Both the position numbers and the translations under genes were made by a program. Source: a virus. Taken from it: a DNA stretch of 23,905 bases. Shown here piece after piece: positions 9,203 through 23,500 of the stretch (position 1 is its first letter; each line of letters starts with the position of its first letter). Under the pieces are notes generated by a model. The model did not search any database, was not told the DNA's origin, and worked only from the letters and a program-made list of their open reading frames with translations. The DNA lies in the IMG/VR virus record IMGVR_UViG_3300043444_000628, positions 1 through 23,905 of that record; one strand, given 5' to 3'.

Positions 9203-11932
9203 ATGCCAACAATAGTAAACGCAATGCAGATTAAGAATGGGGCAAAGGCAGAGCACAATAAAATGGGTACTCTGACTCAACCTATTCAGTTTTTGCGCAG
9301 AAAAGAAAAAGATGAGGCTTGGGGTGCATGGAACCTAGACTGGTTTGAAATGCAAGGTCTAAAGCAAATACGCAGAAATGCTAGAAGATTGCTCAAGAAC
9401 TACAAGCTTGCGAATGGTATTATTGATAAATCAGACTACATTGTTGAAGAAGACAATGAAGTTGCTGAATTAATTGATGTTCTTACAAAAGAAGATCAGA
9501 GTGCATTTGAACTCAAGTTCTTTCCAATTGTACCAAACGTTATCAATGTTCTCACAGGTGAATTTGCAAAAAGAAATGACAAAATCACTTACAGAGCTGT
9601 AGATGACCTATCATATAATGAAATGATAGAGGCAAAACGTGCAATGGTAGAAGAGGTGCTTGTTGCCAGAGCTGAAAAGAAGATGCAAGAGACCATTGAA
9701 AAAATGGGTCTTAATCTTGAGGATGAAGAACAAGCAGCACAAGCTCAGCAAATGATGGCTCCTGAGTCTTTAAAGTCCTTACCTGAAATTGAAGAGTTCT
9801 TTAAAAAAGACTACAGATCTTTAGTTGAAGAATGGGCTACTCACCAACATAATGTTGATGAAGAAAGATTTTCTATGAAAGAATTAGAAAACTTGGCTTT
9901 CCGCGACATGCTTATTACAGACAGAGAGTTCTGGCATTTCAAAATGAATGAGGATGACTATGAGATTGAATTGTGGAATCCTTTATTAACTTTCTATCAT
10001 AAATCTCCTGAAGCAAGATACATCTCACAATCTAACTGGGTTGGTAGAGTAGATCTTCTTACATTGGCTGATGTCATTGACAAATATGGATACATGATGG
10101 ACGAAGACCAAATGCATAGTCTTGAGGCTATTTATCCTGTAAAATCTGCAGGTTATAATTTGCCAGGCGTGCAAAATGATGGGTCTTTCTATGATGGAAC
10201 AAGATCATATGAGTGGAACACAAATGGTCCATCTCTTGGAATGCGTCAGTTTTTGAGTGCTAGTGAAATGCACATGAACACAGGTGATGACATCATCTTT
10301 AAAATCTTAAATGAGTCAGAAGACTTGCAAGAATTTAAAGACATGGGTATGTTGCGTGTAACTACTGTATACTGGAAATCACAAAGAATGGTTGGCCATC
10401 TGTCTAAAATTGATCAGACAGGCGTATTAGTAGATATGATTGTAGATGAAACATACAAGGTTACAGATAAACCAGTTTATGACACTACAGTTATCAAAAA
10501 CAAAAATAGAGAAACATTAGTATATGGTGAACACATTGATTGGATCTGGATTAATGAAACTTGGGGTGGTGTCAAGATTGGTCCTAATAGACCAGCTTAC
10601 TATGGCAATCATGATATCTTTGGATTTGCTCCAATGTATCTTGATGTAAAACCTATTCGTTTCCAGTTTAAAGGAGATTTTACATTATATGGTTGTAAAC
10701 TTCCTGTAGAAGGTGCTGTATTCTCAGATAGAAATACAAAGTCAATGTCTCTTGTAGACAAGATGAAACCTTATCAGGTAGGTTATAACTTAGTGAATAA
10801 TCAAATAGCTGATATCCTTGTAGATGAATTAGGTACAGTTATCATGTTAGATCAGAATGCGTTACCACGTCACTCAATGGGTGAAGACTGGGGTAAAGAT
10901 AATTTTTCTAAAGCATATGTTGCAATGAAGAACTTCCAGATGTTGCCATTGGATACTTCTATTACAAACACAGAAAATGCTTTAAACTTCCAACATTATC
11001 AGGTATTGAATCTTGAACAGACTAATCGTTTGATGTCACGTATTCAACTTTCTAATTACTTTAAGAATCAATGCTTTGAGGCTATTGGATTATCACCTCA
11101 GCGTATGGGAGCTGTTAATGCACAAGAAACAGCACAAGGAATTGAGCAAGCAATAAACATGAGTTATTCTCAAACTGAACCTTATTTTACACAGCATTCA
11201 GAATATTTAATGCCTCGTGTACACCAGATGAGAACAGACTTAAGTCAATATTATCACTCAACAAAACCAAGTTTAAGGTTACAATATTTGACTACTATGG
11301 ATGAAAAGGTTAACTTTGAAATCAATGGTACAGAATTATTAGCTAGAGACTTGAATATTTTTATTACAACTAAGGTTAATCAGAGACAAGTTATTGAGCA
11401 AATTCGCTCTCTTGCTGTTTCTAATAATACATCAGGTGCTTCTATTTATGATTTAGGTAACATTATCAAGGCAGACTCTATGGCTGAGATTACTCATGTT
11501 ATGAAATCTATTGAAGATAAAACTACAAAAGCTAAACAACAAGAAATGCAATCAATGCAAGAAGCTGAGAAAATGCGTCAAGAAGGTGAAACTAAACGTC
11601 TTGAAGCTAAGCTTAAATTTGACGCAGAACAAAAAGCTCTTGACAGAGAATCTGATGAAAGAGTTGCTGAAATTCGCTCTGCTGGTTATACAGCAATGCA
11701 GGATCGCGATGCAAATGCTCAGAATGACTATATTGATACCTTGGAATATCTTGATAAGAAGAATGCAAAAGAAGCAGATCAAGCATTATCAAGAGAAAGA
11801 GAGGTTAATAGACAAGCTTCTGAGCAAAGTAAACTTGAACTAAAACGTCAAGAAATGCTTTCAAAAGAAAGAATTGCAACAAAAGAATTGCAAATTGCAC
11901 AAACAAATAAAAATAAATATGACCAAAAATAA
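9203..11932 (+). CDS. Portal protein
   Basis: 909 residues; ATG at 9203, TAA at 11930-11932. Forms the dodecameric ring at one capsid vertex through which TerL pumps DNA. Typical portal segments are FFPIVPNVINVLTGEFAKRN at about 107-126, a beta-rich wing and clip region (for example YEIELWNPLLTFYHK) and the long stem/crown-helix segment SPQRMGAVNAQETAQGIEQA at about 631-650. From about residue 765 to the end the protein is a Glu/Lys/Gln-rich coiled coil (KQQEMQSMQEAEKMRQEGE...), which explains the large size. Position right after TerL and before the scaffold-like gene fits. A similarly placed coiled-coil tail could reach into the capsid or bind the scaffold. Confidence 0.92.
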   Translation: MPTIVNAMQIKNGAKAEHNKMGTLTQPIQFLRRKEKDEAWGAWNLDWFEMQGLKQIRRNARRLLKNYKLANGIIDKSDYIVEEDNEVAELIDVLTKEDQSAFELKFFPIVPNVINVLTGEFAKRNDKITYRAVDDLSYNEMIEAKRAMVEEVLVARAEKKMQETIEKMGLNLEDEEQAAQAQQMMAPESLKSLPEIEEFFKKDYRSLVEEWATHQHNVDEERFSMKELENLAFRDMLITDREFWHFKMNEDDYEIELWNPLLTFYHKSPEARYISQSNWVGRVDLLTLADVIDKYGYMMDEDQMHSLEAIYPVKSAGYNLPGVQNDGSFYDGTRSYEWNTNGPSLGMRQFLSASEMHMNTGDDIIFKILNESEDLQEFKDMGMLRVTTVYWKSQRMVGHLSKIDQTGVLVDMIVDETYKVTDKPVYDTTVIKNKNRETLVYGEHIDWIWINETWGGVKIGPNRPAYYGNHDIFGFAPMYLDVKPIRFQFKGDFTLYGCKLPVEGAVFSDRNTKSMSLVDKMKPYQVGYNLVNNQIADILVDELGTVIMLDQNALPRHSMGEDWGKDNFSKAYVAMKNFQMLPLDTSITNTENALNFQHYQVLNLEQTNRLMSRIQLSNYFKNQCFEAIGLSPQRMGAVNAQETAQGIEQAINMSYSQTEPYFTQHSEYLMPRVHQMRTDLSQYYHSTKPSLRLQYLTTMDEKVNFEINGTELLARDLNIFITTKVNQRQVIEQIRSLAVSNNTSGASIYDLGNIIKADSMAEITHVMKSIEDKTTKAKQQEMQSMQEAEKMRQEGETKRLEAKLKFDAEQKALDRESDERVAEIRSAGYTAMQDRDANAQNDYIDTLEYLDKKNAKEADQALSREREVNRQASEQSKLELKRQEMLSKERIATKELQIAQTNKNKYDQK

Positions 11933-13366: not shown

Positions 13367-15016
13367 ATGAGTACACCCGTATTAAACAATGGACTGTTCT
13401 TACGTGATACTAACTACAAAGTTGGTTCACACGTAGACTCTTACCATTTGGTGAACATGCTTAAGAGTACTGATCCTATGGATTTAGGACCAGTAGACTT
13501 ATGGGCAATGACCCAAAAGGTAGAAATGCCTCTTTATCAGATGGCTTCTTTTGGTGGTAAAAACACTATTCTTGTAGACAACCCTCGTGGTGAGTACAAA
13601 TGGCAAACTCCTATCGTACAGGATCTTCCTTACGTTGTAGAAGATGTTGAGCCAGGCGTTGCTGTGTTAGGTCAAGATGGTACTACCTTCAAAATCAAAA
13701 TTAACAAGCGTGTATTTGGACATGGTGATATCATCACTTATGACAAATATAAAGGAGCTGAACTTTACATCACTGCTGAGGATATCCTTCCTTCAGGTGA
13801 TGGTTTCGTGTACACTGTTCAATTAGTGAACAATGATAACACTAAGGCTCTTGACAAAAAGTATTTAAAACCAGGTACTAAATTCTTCAGAAAAGGTTCT
13901 GCTCGTGGTGAATACGGTGAGCGTTTCTCTGACATTGGAGAATTGAGTGCAGGTTTCCGTGAGTACTACAACTACGTTGGTGGTGCTGAAGCTCACGTAC
14001 ACTACTCTGTGTCTTCTCGTGCTGAGATGATGATGAAAGGTGGAATGAATGCAGATGGTACAGTTCCTGTAACTGAGATCTGGAAATCATTTGATGCTAA
14101 CATCGCAAAAGATCCTTCTTTAACTAACATTGATGCAATGGTAGCTAAGATGGGTAAAGATTACATCAAGAAAGCTTATGACAATGGTACTTTGACTCGT
14201 TCATTTGTTACTAAAATGGAATCTGCACACTTGAGCAAAATTGCAAACGACATTGAGACTTACTTAATGTGGGGACAAGGTGGTCGTATTAAGCAAGATG
14301 GTCCAGATGATATCAGATTATCTACTGGTCTTTGGGCTCAATTGGATAACTCATTCAAGAGAATCTACAACAAATCTAGCTTTAACTTAGAGTTGTTCCG
14401 TTCTGAGATCTTCAACTTCTACAATGGTAAGGTTGACTTCAAAGGTCCAGATCCTAATCGTCAAATCATTGTTCAAACTGGTATGGCTGGTATGAAGATG
14501 GTGAACGAAGCAATCAAAAAAGAAGCATTCAGCACTGCTGGTTCTGGTACTTCATTGTTTGCTGACATGAGCAAGTCTGGTTTAGGTGCTATCAGCGGTA
14601 ACAACGCAATGGACTTGAACTTTGGTTTTGCTTTCACTAGCTACACCATTCCGTTCTTGGCAAACGTTAAGTTTGTATTGAACCCTGCGTTTGATAACGT
14701 ACACACTAATGATATTGAGAATCCTATCATTGATGGTTTCCCATTATCTTCTTATAACTTCATCGTGTTTGACATCACTGACAACACCAATGACAACATT
14801 TACTTGTTGAAATTGAAGTGGGATAGTGAAATGAAATGGTTCTACCAAAATGGAACTATGGATTACATGGGAAGAACTCAAGGTTTCGCATCTTCAGGTA
14901 ATTTCAATGGTTATAGAGTATTCATGACTCAGACTATGCCTTCTATCTGGGTTAAAGACCCTACTAAAGTTCTCAAAATTGTTATGAGAAATCCTATCAC
15001 TGGAGGATCATTCTAA
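13367..15016 (+). CDS. Probable major capsid protein
   Basis: 549 residues; ATG at 13367 after an A-rich leader, TAA at 15014-15016. I assign it by position (TerL, portal, scaffold-like, then this gene), size, and a codon choice typical of very highly expressed genes (CGT for Arg, and C-ending codons for Tyr, Asn, Phe and Asp much more often than in neighbours). The sequence is alpha/beta-mixed, with the helical SRAEMMMKGG and ANDIETYLMWGQGG regions and a C-terminal beta-rich part ending KIVMRNPITGGSF. This is compatible with an HK97-type fold, though I cannot show the fold from sequence alone. No protease-maturation site is evident. It is followed by a large RNA hairpin and a structured leader. 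Confidence 0.8.
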   Translation: MSTPVLNNGLFLRDTNYKVGSHVDSYHLVNMLKSTDPMDLGPVDLWAMTQKVEMPLYQMASFGGKNTILVDNPRGEYKWQTPIVQDLPYVVEDVEPGVAVLGQDGTTFKIKINKRVFGHGDIITYDKYKGAELYITAEDILPSGDGFVYTVQLVNNDNTKALDKKYLKPGTKFFRKGSARGEYGERFSDIGELSAGFREYYNYVGGAEAHVHYSVSSRAEMMMKGGMNADGTVPVTEIWKSFDANIAKDPSLTNIDAMVAKMGKDYIKKAYDNGTLTRSFVTKMESAHLSKIANDIETYLMWGQGGRIKQDGPDDIRLSTGLWAQLDNSFKRIYNKSSFNLELFRSEIFNFYNGKVDFKGPDPNRQIIVQTGMAGMKMVNEAIKKEAFSTAGSGTSLFADMSKSGLGAISGNNAMDLNFGFAFTSYTIPFLANVKFVLNPAFDNVHTNDIENPIIDGFPLSSYNFIVFDITDNTNDNIYLLKLKWDSEMKWFYQNGTMDYMGRTQGFASSGNFNGYRVFMTQTMPSIWVKDPTKVLKIVMRNPITGGSF

Positions 15017-16965: not shown

Positions 16966-17409
16966 ATGGACTTTGCAGGACAATACAAACCCTTAAAAAG
17001 ATCAACAGCCTCATATTCTGCTGGAAGTTCTTTAGAATCACAAACAGCTGCTTGTGTTACAGAATTAATGAATGCTGCTGTTAGCTTTCATAAATTACAT
17101 TTGAAAGTTACAGGAGTTGGCTCATATTCTTCTCACAAAGCTCTTAATGATTTGTATGATGCATTACCAGGACATGCTGATGATTTAGCAGAACAATTCC
17201 AAGGAGCATCAGAAAAATTATTAAATTTTGAAGATTCTGCACCTAGAATTTTGAATTCTGTAGAAGAAGCGTTATCTTATTTAAGAGAGATGACTCAAAT
17301 GGTTACTGGTTTACAAGCTATTACACCTTACAGTGAGATAGTAAATGATCTAGATACTATTAAAAGCACCTTTAATTCAATCAAGTATAAATTGATTTTC
17401 TTAAAGTAA
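16966..17409 (+). CDS. Dps/ferritin-like protein
   Basis: 147 residues; ATG at 16966, TAA at 17407-17409. The segment from residue 41 (FHKLHLKVTGVGSYSSHKAL) to 78 follows the Dps ferroxidase pattern: H45, H57, D72 and E76 have the same spacing (12, 15, 4) as E. coli Dps H51, H63, D78 and E82. Dps D67 is replaced by N61. The rest is helical, as expected for a four-helix bundle; length is slightly shorter than Dps (~167). Dps oxidises ferrous iron with peroxide and stores iron in a 12-mer cage. Here it lies within the virion genes, so it could be a packaged cargo, a structural bundle that keeps old metal ligands, or a true iron/peroxide protector of phage DNA. Confidence 0.82.
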   Translation: MDFAGQYKPLKRSTASYSAGSSLESQTAACVTELMNAAVSFHKLHLKVTGVGSYSSHKALNDLYDALPGHADDLAEQFQGASEKLLNFEDSAPRILNSVEEALSYLREMTQMVTGLQAITPYSEIVNDLDTIKSTFNSIKYKLIFLK

Positions 17410-18734: not shown

Positions 18735-19340
18735 ATGGCAATAAAACACATCCTGGCGTTAGATATACCAGAAACAGCATGCGACACTGTCTTAAAAATA
18801 TGGGACAGTTCTAGTTATGCTGAGACTCTTCCTGTTGACTGCCCTAGGTTAGATATTTTCTTGCCTGGTTTTGCAGCTCCTTTATATATCACAGAACCTA
18901 AATTACAACCAGGTTTTGCATTAAATCTTACTGCAAAAGATTTCAGTTTGCAACATGCACAAGCTGAAAATTTATTACCATTACCTGATGGCCTTTACAC
19001 AATAAAATATAGTGTTTCTCCAAATGATAAAGTATTTGTTGAATATTACCATTTGAGAACAACAAGCATTACGAATGCATATTACAAGGAACTTTGCAAA
19101 GTGCAATTAGAACCTTGTGAACCAACTCCAGAGCAACATCAAAAATTGCATGACTTAAGATATATTAAAATGTATATTGATGCTGCAAAAGCAAAAGCAG
19201 AATACTGCCATGCTCCAAAACAAGGAGTTGAAATGTTAGCTTATGCTGACAAATTACTTAAGAAATACATGACAGGTTGCTGTGTTACTTGTACTACAAG
19301 CAATACACATTACGGTAACTGCAGCACTTGCAACTCATAA
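18735..19340 (+). CDS. Conserved-looking hypothetical appendage-region protein
   Basis: 201 residues; ATG at 18735, TAA at 19338-19340. The N-terminal ~110 residues look like a beta-sandwich (LDIFLPGFAAPLYITEPKLQ; LPDGLYTIKYSVSPNDKVFV). A helical segment follows (IKMYIDAAKAKAEY), and then a Cys-rich tail with CC, C, C and C in the last 22 residues (from TGCCVTC). No signal peptide is present, so it acts in the cytoplasm or virion. It opens the run of Cys-rich genes after the terminator at 18637. A possible assembly or joining protein for the appendages; function unknown. Confidence 0.78.
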   Translation: MAIKHILALDIPETACDTVLKIWDSSSYAETLPVDCPRLDIFLPGFAAPLYITEPKLQPGFALNLTAKDFSLQHAQAENLLPLPDGLYTIKYSVSPNDKVFVEYYHLRTTSITNAYYKELCKVQLEPCEPTPEQHQKLHDLRYIKMYIDAAKAKAEYCHAPKQGVEMLAYADKLLKKYMTGCCVTCTTSNTHYGNCSTCNS

Positions 19341-19362: not shown

Positions 19363-19548
19363 ATGAATTGCCCAAACTGCCAATCAAAACTATCATGTGG
19401 TTGCCAAAAGAGAATTGCAACTGATGGTAAAGAAGTATGTAGTAACTGTGTTACAGCATATGAAAATCATTTAACAGCAAAAAAAGCTGCTGCTCAAGAG
19501 CAATTAAAAACTGCAGCAATGAACGCAGCATTACAAAATAAACAATAA
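19363..19548 (+). CDS. Small zinc-ribbon protein
   Basis: 61 residues; ATG at 19363, TAA at 19546-19548. Cysteines C3, C6, C12, C14, C26 and C29 in CPNC, CGC and CSNC form at least one zinc-ribbon-type site. The C-terminal half (ENHLTAKKAAAQEQLKTAAM) is an Ala-rich helix. It sits one base before the next ATG. Possibly a small assembly factor for the Cys-rich fibres; no family recognised. Confidence 0.75.
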   Translation: MNCPNCQSKLSCGCQKRIATDGKEVCSNCVTAYENHLTAKKAAAQEQLKTAAMNAALQNKQ

Positions 19549-19549
19549 A

Positions 19550-19777
19550 ATGAGTACACCACTAGAACGCATAAATGAACTATTTGCTGACTCTGTTTAC
19601 CAAGCGTATAAAAAACAACGTTATGGTTTAAAAAGTTGTAAAGCAAAAGTAGATCCTGAGTATGCTCAAGATCTTAAAGAACTTTTAGTGCGAACTAATG
19701 AGATGAACACTTGTGGTTTAACATTTGGTGGTGGTTGTAGTAAGATTAGTATTGAAGAAAAAATCAAAACATTATAA
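19550..19777 (+). CDS. Small hypothetical protein
   Basis: 75 residues; ATG at 19550, TAA at 19775-19777. Helical N-terminus (LERINELFADSVYQAYKKQR), three cysteines and a GGG turn near the end. Tightly packed: one base after the zinc-ribbon gene and a one-base TAATG overlap with the fibre gene that follows, so probably co-translated with it. It might be a chaperone or connector for the fibres, but that is inferred only from position. Confidence 0.72.
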   Translation: MSTPLERINELFADSVYQAYKKQRYGLKSCKAKVDPEYAQDLKELLVRTNEMNTCGLTFGGGCSKISIEEKIKTL

Positions 19778-21339
19778 TGAAACCATTAAATAGCAATATG
19801 CACTTAAAACCAGAAGAAGGATGTACAAAAACTTCTTCTTCTTGTGTTATCTGGCAAGGTCCAGATATTCCTTGCATTGAATTATGCAAAGGTGATTCTG
19901 TAACTGACGTTGTCTACAAACTTGCAACATTGCTATGTGAAATGACAACAGGTGTTATTGATATTAGTTCAGTAGATTTTAAATGCATTATAGCTGAAGG
20001 AATTGCTGAACCAACAACTCTTCAGGCTACTCTTCAAGCAATTATTGATAAGCAATGTTACTTTGAAGATAATTGTTGTTCTGATTCTGGAGCTAGACCT
20101 GCTGATACTCCTATTTCACTTCCTGCTTGTTTATACTATACAGTAGATGGTGATCAAATTACATCACTTTTACCTGCTGAATATAGTCAATATCTTGCTT
20201 CTAAGATCTGTCAAGTAATTACTGATATTGCTAGTGTTAATTCTACACTGAATAATCTTCAAGGTAGAGTAACAAACCTTGAAGCAAATCTCAGTGGTGG
20301 TGGTACTGGTTCTACAATTTCAGTTGTTGCGCAATGTGCAAGTGATGCTGTACCAGGAACAGTTGTTCCAATTGGTCAAGCTTTTTCTGCATTTGAAAGT
20401 AAATTTTGTCAACTAACAACTTTGTTAGGAACAAATGCTGCTTTATCAACTGCAATTGGAAAAGAATGTACTTCTTTAGATAGTGCAACTCAATTATCTA
20501 ATGCTGAGGCAACAATGTCTGAAATTCCAGGTTGGGTTGCTACACCATCTACATTGTCAGAAACCATAGTAAACATGTGGTTGACAATCTGTGATATGAG
20601 AACTGCCATTCAATCATGTTGTGCTGGTACTACAACTGGTTGTGTACCTGTTCCAGTATCTAATATTCAAATTACTAATCTTAGTGCTGGTGGTTCAACA
20701 ATCACATGGACTGCTCCTGCAGTTGGTGCAAATGAAAATCCACAGCAATATAATATTCAAGTATATGAGTGGAATGGAACAACTACAGTTGGTTCTCCAA
20801 TTGTAAATACAAATAAAGCGTTTCCTTCTACATCATTAGATATTACACTTGTTCCAGATCCTTCAAAAAACTATCAAGTTCAGATTATTGCTGAATATTC
20901 ATGTGATAGTTCAGTTGTTGCAACTGCAATTGGCAAGTTAGCATTAACAGCTGTTGTTTACTGTGTACAAGTAACTGATACAAACTATGATGAGGTTACA
21001 GAATTATGTAATGGAGAATCGTTTGTATCTAGAAGAAGAAAAACTACATTGACCTTAAAAGACATAAATACTAATGCAACAGTAGGTAATGCTTACGCTC
21101 CATTCAGTGTTAGTGTAAATTATGAAGTTAGTGGAGATTGTTCATCTGCAGTGTCAGAAACTGTAACAAGAAATTTTGCAACAGGAGTTTCATCTGTTGA
21201 TATAATCTACGCAACTGAAAGATATGTACAATGTGGAGCAGATCCTTGTAGCGCAAGAATTCAAACATACAGTTGTATTCAAGAAATTACTGGGGATAGA
21301 GCAGTTGCTTGTTCTGGTGAAATCACATGTTTAACGTAA
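19777..21339 (+). CDS. Cys-rich fibre/appendage protein with fibronectin-III-like domain
   Basis: 520 residues; ATG at 19777 (TAATG overlap), TAA at 21337-21339. Layout: an N-terminal module with CVIWQGPDIPC at 23-33 and a helix to C54, shared with the next gene; a helical linker; a short trimer-like coiled coil (SVNSTLNNLQGRVTNLEANL, about 153-172) ending in a GGGTG hinge; a second helical/Cys section; and a fibronectin-III-like beta-sandwich at about 295-390 (VSNIQITNLSAGGSTITWTA). A further beta-rich Cys-containing end follows. It holds about two dozen cysteines. Likely a tail fibre or head fibre that touches the host surface, with the N-terminal module attaching to the virion. Confidence 0.78.
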   Translation: MKPLNSNMHLKPEEGCTKTSSSCVIWQGPDIPCIELCKGDSVTDVVYKLATLLCEMTTGVIDISSVDFKCIIAEGIAEPTTLQATLQAIIDKQCYFEDNCCSDSGARPADTPISLPACLYYTVDGDQITSLLPAEYSQYLASKICQVITDIASVNSTLNNLQGRVTNLEANLSGGGTGSTISVVAQCASDAVPGTVVPIGQAFSAFESKFCQLTTLLGTNAALSTAIGKECTSLDSATQLSNAEATMSEIPGWVATPSTLSETIVNMWLTICDMRTAIQSCCAGTTTGCVPVPVSNIQITNLSAGGSTITWTAPAVGANENPQQYNIQVYEWNGTTTVGSPIVNTNKAFPSTSLDITLVPDPSKNYQVQIIAEYSCDSSVVATAIGKLALTAVVYCVQVTDTNYDEVTELCNGESFVSRRRKTTLTLKDINTNATVGNAYAPFSVSVNYEVSGDCSSAVSETVTRNFATGVSSVDIIYATERYVQCGADPCSARIQTYSCIQEITGDRAVACSGEITCLT

Positions 21340-21360: not shown

Positions 21361-22695
21361 ATGTATCCTAATCAATATTGTAAACCATGTAATGATCCTC
21401 AACCATGTGTTGAGATCCCAGCACCACCAGATTGTGTGGGCGAACCATGTGATGAAATAGTTTTAGACACCTGTGTTAGATACACAGGCCCAGCAATACC
21501 ATGCCTTGGCATAGAAGCTAATGCAAATTTAAATTTGAATCAAATTATTCAAATTATTGCAAATAGACTTTGTGATTGCTGTGATGGTACACCTCCAGTA
21601 GTAGACTGCCAAGTTTCTGATTGGGGTCCATGGGGTGAATGTATTAATGGTGTTCAAACTAGAACAAGAACAGTAATTCAATCTCCTCAGAATGGTGGAG
21701 CTGAATGTCCTCCTCTTGAAGAAACTAGAGAATGTTGTTTACCAGTTGACTGCGTTGTTTCTGAATGGAGCGCATGGTCTGAATGTAATGGAACAACTCA
21801 AACCAGAACTAGAACTGTAGTTACACCAGCTTCTTGTGGAGGTGCTGAATGCCCTGTGTTAGAAGAAACAAGAGAGTGTTGCACTCCTGTGGATTGTGTT
21901 GTATCAGCTTGGTCTGACTGGTCTGAGTGTGTAGGAGGTGAAAGAACTAGAACTAGAACAGTTGTAACTCCTGCATCATGTGGTGGTGTTGAGTGTCCTG
22001 TTCTTAGTGAAACAGAACCATGTGTAATACCATGTACACAAATTGAAAATATATTTGCTGAATCTGACAATTGTGAAACATTCTTTGTTTCATTTACTGA
22101 TGATGGTTCTGCTACAACTTTGTCAGCAGAATTATATGAGGTGTCAAATCCTTTAGTCATTATAAGTACTAAAACTTGGATACCTACAGGTTCATTGACA
22201 AGTTACAGTCATACATTTACAGGATTGAGCGCTGGAACATATGCAGCTAAAGTTTATAAAAATGGTGGTTTAATTTGTGATGTTGTTATTACACCACAAA
22301 TTGATGTATTGGCTTGTGTTTTAGCATGTCCAACTCCAACTAATTTAGATGTAATTGAAGTATGTGATCACACAAATAATGGTGTTACAGCTTCAGCTAC
22401 AGTTAGTGGATTATCAGCAGTAAACTTATCATTTGAATTATACAACATTACTGCAGGTACTGTCTTAGTTGATACTCAAACTGCAAGTGTACCTGGTGGT
22501 GGATCTGGTTCAGTTAACTTCTTTGGATTAGGATTAATTGCTGGAGATGAATATGAAGTTAGAGTTTCAACAGTATGTGAAAACTTTACATCATCAGCAC
22601 AAGTTGTATTTAATTTTATCAAAGCTGCTTGTAAACCTAATTTGTTAGATCCTTGTCCTCAACCTACAGATTTAACGGCAACAGTAACAGCATAA
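21361..22695 (+). CDS. Fibre protein with three thrombospondin-1-like repeats
   Basis: 444 residues; ATG at 21361, TAA at 22693-22695. Residues 38-71 repeat the N-terminal CVxxxGPxIPC module of the previous gene. Three thrombospondin-type-1-like repeats follow at 83-130, 131-178 and 179-225, each 48 residues long, with the hallmark WxxWxxC, then RTRT and a cysteine pair. Two beta-sandwich (fibronectin-III/Ig-like) domains follow at about 230-325 and 330-425, and the end (CPQPTDLTATVTA) looks like the first strand of another. There are 27 cysteines in the first 225 residues. Probably a host-recognition or virion surface fibre, with repeats acting as adhesive or glycan-binding modules. Confidence 0.8.
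   Translation: MYPNQYCKPCNDPQPCVEIPAPPDCVGEPCDEIVLDTCVRYTGPAIPCLGIEANANLNLNQIIQIIANRLCDCCDGTPPVVDCQVSDWGPWGECINGVQTRTRTVIQSPQNGGAECPPLEETRECCLPVDCVVSEWSAWSECNGTTQTRTRTVVTPASCGGAECPVLEETRECCTPVDCVVSAWSDWSECVGGERTRTRTVVTPASCGGVECPVLSETEPCVIPCTQIENIFAESDNCETFFVSFTDDGSATTLSAELYEVSNPLVIISTKTWIPTGSLTSYSHTFTGLSAGTYAAKVYKNGGLICDVVITPQIDVLACVLACPTPTNLDVIEVCDHTNNGVTASATVSGLSAVNLSFELYNITAGTVLVDTQTASVPGGGSGSVNFFGLGLIAGDEYEVRVSTVCENFTSSAQVVFNFIKAACKPNLLDPCPQPTDLTATVTA
21607..22035 (+). repeat. Three tandem ~144-base repeats (thrombospondin-1-like units)
   Basis: In-frame tandem units beginning at 21607, 21751 and 21895, each 144 bases (48 codons). Units 2 and 3 share nearly the same protein text around TRTRTVVTPASCGG; unit 1 is more diverged. 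The pattern implies internal duplication, with the last copy step more recent. Confidence 0.85.
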
Positions 22696-22720: not shown

Positions 22721-23500
22721 ATGGCAACATTAACTATAAATTTTACGCCAGTGCCTGGAATAACAAGTTATACAATTTGTTATAAACCTTCTGATGCTGT
22801 TAATTATACATGCATTGAAGACTCGCAATCTCCTGTGGTTATAACTGCAGGAATAGAATGTGGTGTTAGATATGATGTAACAGTGGCTACAAATTGTCCT
22901 GCCGGAGAATATGCGACAAACACAAGTGTTCCTGTTACATATACAACATTGGCATTAGATTGTCCTCCTCCTCCAACACCTTGCTTATCATATACTGTAG
23001 CTACAACTGCAGCTCAGGCACAAACAATTGATTATACAAATTGTGATGGTACACCTGGACAAATATCAATTGGTGGAGTAAGTGGATATGATGCAACTAC
23101 ATTCTGTGCTTTAGAAGGTAGTGTTGGTGCATCTGGAGAAACTTGGACAACAGTAAATGGTCCTTGTGGCGAACCTAAAACAATTAACGTTTCTGGAGCA
23201 TATGGTACAATGGAACCATGCATTGGTGGAACTATTGATGACTTTATGAGTGCAAGTGTAAATTTGGATAATACAGTATCAGTTGATACAATTTTCCAAG
23301 TAGATGTATACTGGTCTGAGAGAAATTCAGGTGGATGTGCTTACCCTAATACTCAATCATTCTGGATTCCTGTAAAAGCTGGACAAAGTAGTGGTAGTCT
23401 AAATGCTTGTACAAATGGTGCTTACTTCCCTTCAGGAGCTGACATCTGTAGTGCTGCTGTAGTTAGTCACGACAATACTGTGGACACTATTAATTTATAA
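22721..23500 (+). CDS. Cys-containing surface protein with fibronectin-III-like start
   Basis: 259 residues; ATG at 22721, TAA at 23498-23500. Residues 1-75 are the B-to-G strands of a fibronectin-III-like domain (INFTPVPGITSYTICYKPS) without a first strand, which the previous gene ends with. Residues ~88-150 hold a small Cys domain (DYTNCDGTPGQ; FCALEGSVGASG). The end is a beta-rich domain with further cysteines. Probably a virion surface or fibre-tip protein working with the two upstream fibres. The family is not recognised. Confidence 0.76.
   Translation: MATLTINFTPVPGITSYTICYKPSDAVNYTCIEDSQSPVVITAGIECGVRYDVTVATNCPAGEYATNTSVPVTYTTLALDCPPPPTPCLSYTVATTAAQAQTIDYTNCDGTPGQISIGGVSGYDATTFCALEGSVGASGETWTTVNGPCGEPKTINVSGAYGTMEPCIGGTIDDFMSASVNLDNTVSVDTIFQVDVYWSERNSGGCAYPNTQSFWIPVKAGQSSGSLNACTNGAYFPSGADICSAAVVSHDNTVDTINL

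Follow-up and report, generated by a model that had tools for sequence, protein, structure and literature searches.

Thrombospondin type 1 (TSP1) repeats are modules best known from animal adhesion proteins, and an apparent array of three such repeats in a phage gene raises the question of whether they are genuine TSP1 domains and what they would do there. The DNA that we analysed (the window) is a 23,905-nucleotide (23.9-kb), metagenome-derived virus record from IMG/VR that carries Crassvirales capsid, terminase and portal genes by Pfam and PHROG. It derives from an uncultured crAss-like phage, a crAssphage relative within the Crassvirales; the markers are the major capsid protein, portal and terminase, while the ring and muzzle matches are weak and come partly through a sister phage, L001. 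When the major capsid protein is compared with annotated phage records, Leptolyngbya phage Lbo-JY46 comes out as the best match (27% over 99%); its recorded host is a cyanobacterium, which is unusual for a crAss-like capsid. The 444-residue protein with the repeats has no PHROG match. Its features and those of its neighbours are collected in Table 1.

Table 1. Features of the TSP1 gene and its surroundings in the window
Feature	Position	Strand	Basis
Crassvirales major capsid protein	13367..15016	+	Pfam Crass_capsid 3.7e-33; PHROG major head 4e-34
p201, Cys-rich, at the place of the crAss001 tail-hub gene	18735..19340	+	position only
p520, Cys-rich upstream neighbour with anchor motif, weak fn3	19777..21339	+	anchor profile E 1e-5; 27 Cys
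Complete ORF, 444 aa: anchor, three TSP1 units, two beta-sandwich domains	21361..22695	+	same gene-order place in sister phages
N-terminal anchor domain, residues 1-81, MYPNQYC...CVRYTGPAIPCLGI...LCDCC	21361..21603	+	alignment A4 and profile
TSP1 unit 1, residues 83-130, without BC-loop Cys, CC at end	21607..21750	+	Pfam PF19028/PF00090
Staple 1 between repeats (predicted), codons 21736-21738 (Cys126) and 21835-21837 (Cys159)	21736..21837	+	cysteine rule
TSP1 unit 2, residues 131-178, BC-loop Cys (ASC), CC at end	21751..21894	+	Pfam PF19028/PF00090
Staple 2 between repeats (predicted), codons 21880-21882 (Cys174) and 21979-21981 (Cys207)	21880..21981	+	cysteine rule
TSP1 unit 3, residues 179-226, BC-loop Cys (ASC), without terminal CC	21895..22038	+	Pfam PF19028/PF00090
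Two predicted beta-sandwich (fn3/Ig-like) domains, residues 227-432	22039..22656	+	single-sequence AF2 (low-confidence), Foldseek
p259, Cys-rich downstream neighbour, weakly like major tail protein	22721..23500	+	PHROG 4971 E 0.005; 13 Cys

The identification as TSP1, which a preliminary description of the locus had proposed from motifs, holds up well. All three units contain WxxWxxC, TRTRT and the conserved cysteines, and the protein scores above the curated cut-offs of both Pfam TSP1_spondin (PF19028; 102 bits against 41, E 2e-29) and Pfam TSP_1 (PF00090; 40.9 bits against 21.6), each in three stretches. We also built a TSP1 profile of our own, which gave 85-90 bits for each window unit and at best 13.3 bits for 2000 shuffles of the same protein; this profile contains the window units among its members and thus Pfam serves as the independent test. 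With scores above the curated cut-offs and shuffles peaking so low, chance similarity to TSP1 is ruled out. More broadly, WxxW was found in 86 and RxR in 93 of 94 distinct phage units, and both occur in every window unit. The units had also been described as three exact 48-residue repeats, which is right for their spacing, since they begin at residues 83, 131 and 179, but not for their sequences, which are identical at only 24-34 of 48 positions. Likewise, the range given for TSP1, mainly animals and protists, needs widening, as the module occurs in scattered bacteria and has UniProt entries from algal viruses and from a single uncultured phage.

Structure prediction points to the same fold. 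A profile from an alignment of twelve phage arrays (A3) matched only TSP1 repeat (TSR) proteins among PDB sequences, namely complement C8, C9 and C7, F-spondin, R-spondin-2 and MIC2, with a best value of 3.7e-8. TSRs form a three-stranded antiparallel sheet (PMC10978931) and the AlphaFold2 model built from the same alignment has three strands in each unit with a pLDDT of 93.5, its pTM being only 0.49. Foldseek ranked properdin (8e-7), complement proteins and thrombospondin-1 (TSP-1 repeats, 2.3e-5) at the top, and single complement TSRs superpose at 1.1-1.6 Å rmsd. The window repeats are thus predicted to adopt the elongated three-stranded TSR fold. The single-sequence model of the whole protein is weak (pLDDT 55.6); in this low-confidence model residues 227-432 contain strands and no other secondary structure, and this region has no Pfam match, its best Foldseek matches being fibronectin type III domains.

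Although these domains are TSRs, their cysteines set them apart. The canonical group-2 (F-spondin) TSR has six cysteines in three disulfides (C1-C4, C2-C5 and C3-C6), and tryptophan C-mannosylation is a further mark of the subtype; the window units have the WxxW motif. The phage units have in common with spondin-type TSP1 domains (PF19028/PF00090; F-spondin, properdin, complement C6-C9) the WxxWxxC of strand A, the RxR of strand B and the GG..C of the BC loop. However, they are phage-borne, their AB loop is shortened, they lack C3 and C6, and they have four core cysteines instead of six, together with extra cysteines that we predict to pair between units. Because C3 is a cysteine in just 1 of the 94 distinct units parsed and 77 of the 94 have exactly four cysteines from C1 to C5, the phage type is a variant rather than the canonical group-2 subtype. 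Bacterial TSP1 proteins (Maribellus, Acidimicrobiales, Thermodesulfovibrionia and others) belong to the same Pfam family and also differ from the phage units, in that their well-aligned units keep C3 within CxxxCGGG and most keep C6.

The extra cysteines of the crAss-type units occupy two sites, one immediately following C5 and the other within the BC loop (ASC), and they follow a strict rule: the post-C5 cysteine of a unit and the BC-loop cysteine of the adjacent unit that follows it are either both present or both absent. The 51 adjacent pairs comprise 16 with both cysteines, 35 with neither and no discordant one (Fisher 1.4e-13), and the crAss-type arrays alone give 16, 5 and 0 (p 4.9e-5), values that overstate independence because the arrays are kin by descent. 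The BC-loop cysteine is absent from all 52 units that have no upstream neighbour, and CC from all 52 that have no downstream neighbour. Within single units the two extra cysteines show no association (p 1.0), on which ground we reject their pairing inside a unit. The topology of the fold agrees with this: the antiparallel course of strands A, B and C (PMC10978931) would place the BC loop towards the N-terminal end of a unit and its C-terminus at the opposite end, and the extra cysteines could meet only across a junction. From this strict covariation between units we predict the disulfides C126-C159 and C174-C207, which suggests that neighbouring repeats are stapled into a rod. Inside each unit, pairing would be C1-C4 and C2-C5, as in F-spondin-type TSRs minus the third disulfide; in unit 1 these bonds would be C83-C116 and C94-C125, with counterparts in units 2 and 3. 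A single TSP1 unit elsewhere (L144:5855-10333, residues 1386-1430) has lost C1 and C4 together, as is expected if C1 pairs with C4. A point against the model is that the cytoplasm in which phage proteins fold is reducing. TSR disulfides are required for stability (PMC6954052), and here they would have to arise at a late stage; disulfides are nevertheless present in the virions of crAss001.

How old is the array? Its three units had been taken as a recent tandem duplication, with units 2 and 3 nearly the same, and this does not survive comparison. The units are identical at 31 (1-2), 24 (1-3) and 34 (2-3) of 48 residues and at 66%, 58% and 60% of nucleotides, respectively, units 2 and 3 differ by 19 synonymous and 14 non-synonymous codon changes, and the array is missing from the output of Tandem Repeats Finder. 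Furthermore, unit 1 matches the first unit of sister phage L001 at 86% of amino acids and 83% of nucleotides, compared with 63% and 67% for its own unit 2 and 53% of amino acids for its own unit 3. Because unit 1 is closer to its counterpart in L001 than to its own neighbours, the duplication is older than the split of these phages, and a recent duplication is ruled out. L001 itself has four units, the third separated from the fourth by a beta-sandwich-like stretch, and by this comparison copy number has changed after the phages split.

The gene sits among virion genes. The ORF lies between homologues of crAss001 gp34 (ring) and of gp40, gp43 and gp44 (rings, muzzle), matches that are weak but colinear, and the corresponding crAss001 interval encodes capsid auxiliary and tail-hub genes. 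The same gene-order place, with matching flanks on both sides, recurs in the independent contigs L001, L008, L035, L098, L101 and L108. Judged from gene order, the ORF is thus in a conserved place within the virion gene cluster. Cysteine makes up 5.0-9.8% of p201, p61, p520, the TSP1 protein and p259, and 0-0.2% of the capsid, scaffold-position and portal proteins. For p520, the fn3 match in Pfam (6e-4) is below the cut-off. The neighbouring families p384, p201, p75, p520 and p259 gave no match to crAss001 proteins by hhalign, fibre proteins included. The appendage cluster also holds a 61-aa protein with paired, zinc-ribbon-like CxxC motifs (19363-19548, +). Directly after the ring-protein gene, inside the structural cluster, is a Dps/ferritin-like gene (16966-17409, +; PHROG 858 E 4e-21, DUF5856 1e-14) that is kept in many, although not all, relatives. 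In L001, the muzzle-like protein (1723 aa; L001:16551-21719) has a C-terminal region that, by eye, resembles a von Willebrand A domain with Ig-like repeats after it.

The N-terminal anchor is conserved (alignment A4), and its profile finds only uncharacterised neighbour proteins, that is, the upstream p520 and proteins in the same slot of sister phages that lack TSP1. An anchor common to p520 and these TSP1-free proteins indicates that TSP1 is an exchangeable payload. In phages whose capsid protein is 92-94% identical, the slot proteins are short (92-176 aa) and have the same anchor with no TSP1 in their records, which are of mixed length and include some fragments; TSP1 presence is patchy on the capsid tree. 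As far as sequence comparison shows it, payload and copy number have been exchanged among phages while anchor and capsid stay conserved.

Nor is the module confined to this slot. In IMG/VR, the TSP1 type of the window is also found on three other carriers in other phages, and the proposed survey of copy number gave between 1 and 11 units per protein. One carrier is the C-terminus of a virion protein of 1400 aa (PHROG 14478), with 1-11 units, in relatives of Cellulophaga phages phi18:3 and phi38:1; its N-terminus matches the crAss001 muzzle gp44 (hhalign 87%). Another is the C-terminus of a tail-tube-like protein (Phage_tail_2/PHROG 1407) in relatives of Cellulophaga phage phi10:1 and Flavobacterium phage 11b, and the third is a 912-aa protein that adjoins phage genes. 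Including the window slot, there are thus four carriers in which the module is fused to or lies beside known virion proteins in unrelated phages. In one contig, a tail-tube-like protein with two TSP1 units (L102:9563-10618) is adjoined by a similar protein without them (10622-11134), the pair lying downstream of a likely tape-measure gene. A different TSP1 type is found in another virus contig, where a 718-aa protein (L111:8276-10429) has five TSP1-like units among many YSFTP repeats and an N-terminal PASTA domain. Among cultured phages, tblastn with the whole protein and the TSP1 arrays against 50,697 phage records gave nothing above chance. The hosts of the cultured relatives suggest Bacteroidota as hosts of phages with this module. 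Taken together, neighbourhood and carriers support the virion-surface setting implied by the earlier term "phage fibre", but a fibre as such is not shown; the TSP1 protein is probably on an exposed virion appendage.

We consider it likely that the gene encodes a modular crAss-like virion appendage with a role in adsorption, in which a docked anchor is followed by a stapled rod of four-cysteine TSP1 repeats and by beta-sandwich domains. The Cys-rich N-terminal domain, common to the upstream structural protein, would dock the protein on the virion. The three repeats, of the phage-specific four-cysteine type, would form a short rod, stiffened by the extra disulfide from the cysteine after C5 to the BC-loop cysteine of the next unit, with the two beta-sandwich domains coming next. 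The array may show a Trp/Arg-rich surface, hold the terminal domains off the virion, or both, and would contact host surface polysaccharide or protein and so aid adsorption. Presence in the particle, surface exposure, the stapled rod and the adsorption role are what we infer. A wider reading, for which we see about even chances, is that this is a phage TSP1 lineage in which inter-repeat disulfides have replaced the third within-domain one, with covalently stapled rods as the result, and that it has spread, in the role of a mobile adhesive module, to at least four unrelated virion proteins, probably of Bacteroidota phages.

The array could instead be a passive stiff spacer or protective decoration with no ligand of its own, keeping the terminal beta-sandwich domains, or nothing at all, at a distance from the virion, its copy number tuning length. 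The range of 1 to 11 units, the alternation of arrays with beta-sandwich domains or spacers of about 100 residues, the rigidity suggested by the inter-unit cysteines and the position of the array as a C-terminal extension in muzzle homologues all fit such a role, which we regard as possible if somewhat unlikely: patchy presence and payload swapping fit host-interaction parts better, and single isolated units exist (L010, L106, L108) that are too short for a useful spacer. Binding to animal, algal or protist extracellular matter such as mucus or sulphated glycans, which would hold the phage close to the bacteria that it infects, much as the Ig-like domains of gut-phage adhesins and T4 Hoc would, seems doubtful to us. 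Some animal TSRs do bind glycosaminoglycans (Sema5A, PMC10978931), and crAss-like phages carry epithelium-binding Ig-like adhesins (PMC13370021). However, related carriers are found in phages of free-living marine Flavobacteriia, and the ligand sites of animal TSRs are not transferable at this level of identity.

Two further alternatives concern the cysteines and the origin of the gene. If first, middle and last unit types were inherited by position, the extra cysteines could be unpaired, and descent does contribute, since window unit 1 is closest to unit 1 of its relatives. Yet the rule is kept where the order of units differs, the stapled set being units 3-5 in L098, units 1-3 of 4 in L094 and L095, and units 1-3 in L009, where units 4-5 are free and unit 2 has CGC in place of CC; we therefore hold purely positional inheritance to be unlikely. 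Eukaryotic contamination or a chimeric assembly might come to mind for a module best known from eukaryotes in a metagenome-derived record, but we reject it as vanishingly improbable given the synteny with matching flanks across the independent contigs and the phage-specific cysteine type that these phages have in common.

Other phage decorations offer the closest comparisons for the appendage that we favour. Ig-like and fn3 decorations (the lambda gpV C-terminal domain, T4 Hoc, and the BACON and PKD gut-phage adhesins, PMC13370021) are likewise small beta domains, borne in unrelated phages by proteins of the head, tail and tail tip and swapped between relatives, whereas phage TSP1 is another fold, rich in cysteine, with predicted inter-domain disulfides. 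The PhicrAss001 head fibres gp21 and gp29 and the tail-fibre docking system (PMC10172136) occupy a comparable virion gene interval and have short N-terminal attachment segments, but the neighbouring families in the window have no detectable sequence match to those proteins. Known here as database labels are the TSR of UniProt A0A6J5N7M8 ("TSP1 repeat", an uncultured Caudovirales phage fragment) and the TSP1 proteins of prasinoviruses and Fadolivirus; these labels mean that TSP1 in viruses is not new. We found no paper on point about TSP1 on phage virions in the open-licence literature; what appears new is the range of carriers, together with the cysteine rule between repeats.

The inter-repeat cysteine rule provides a sharp prediction. 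In addition, TSP1 in a metagenomic contig need not indicate eukaryotic sequence. For phages, the finding would extend the set of virion-decorating beta modules by a class of domains stapled through cysteines, with slot, tail-tube-like and muzzle-type proteins as its carriers.
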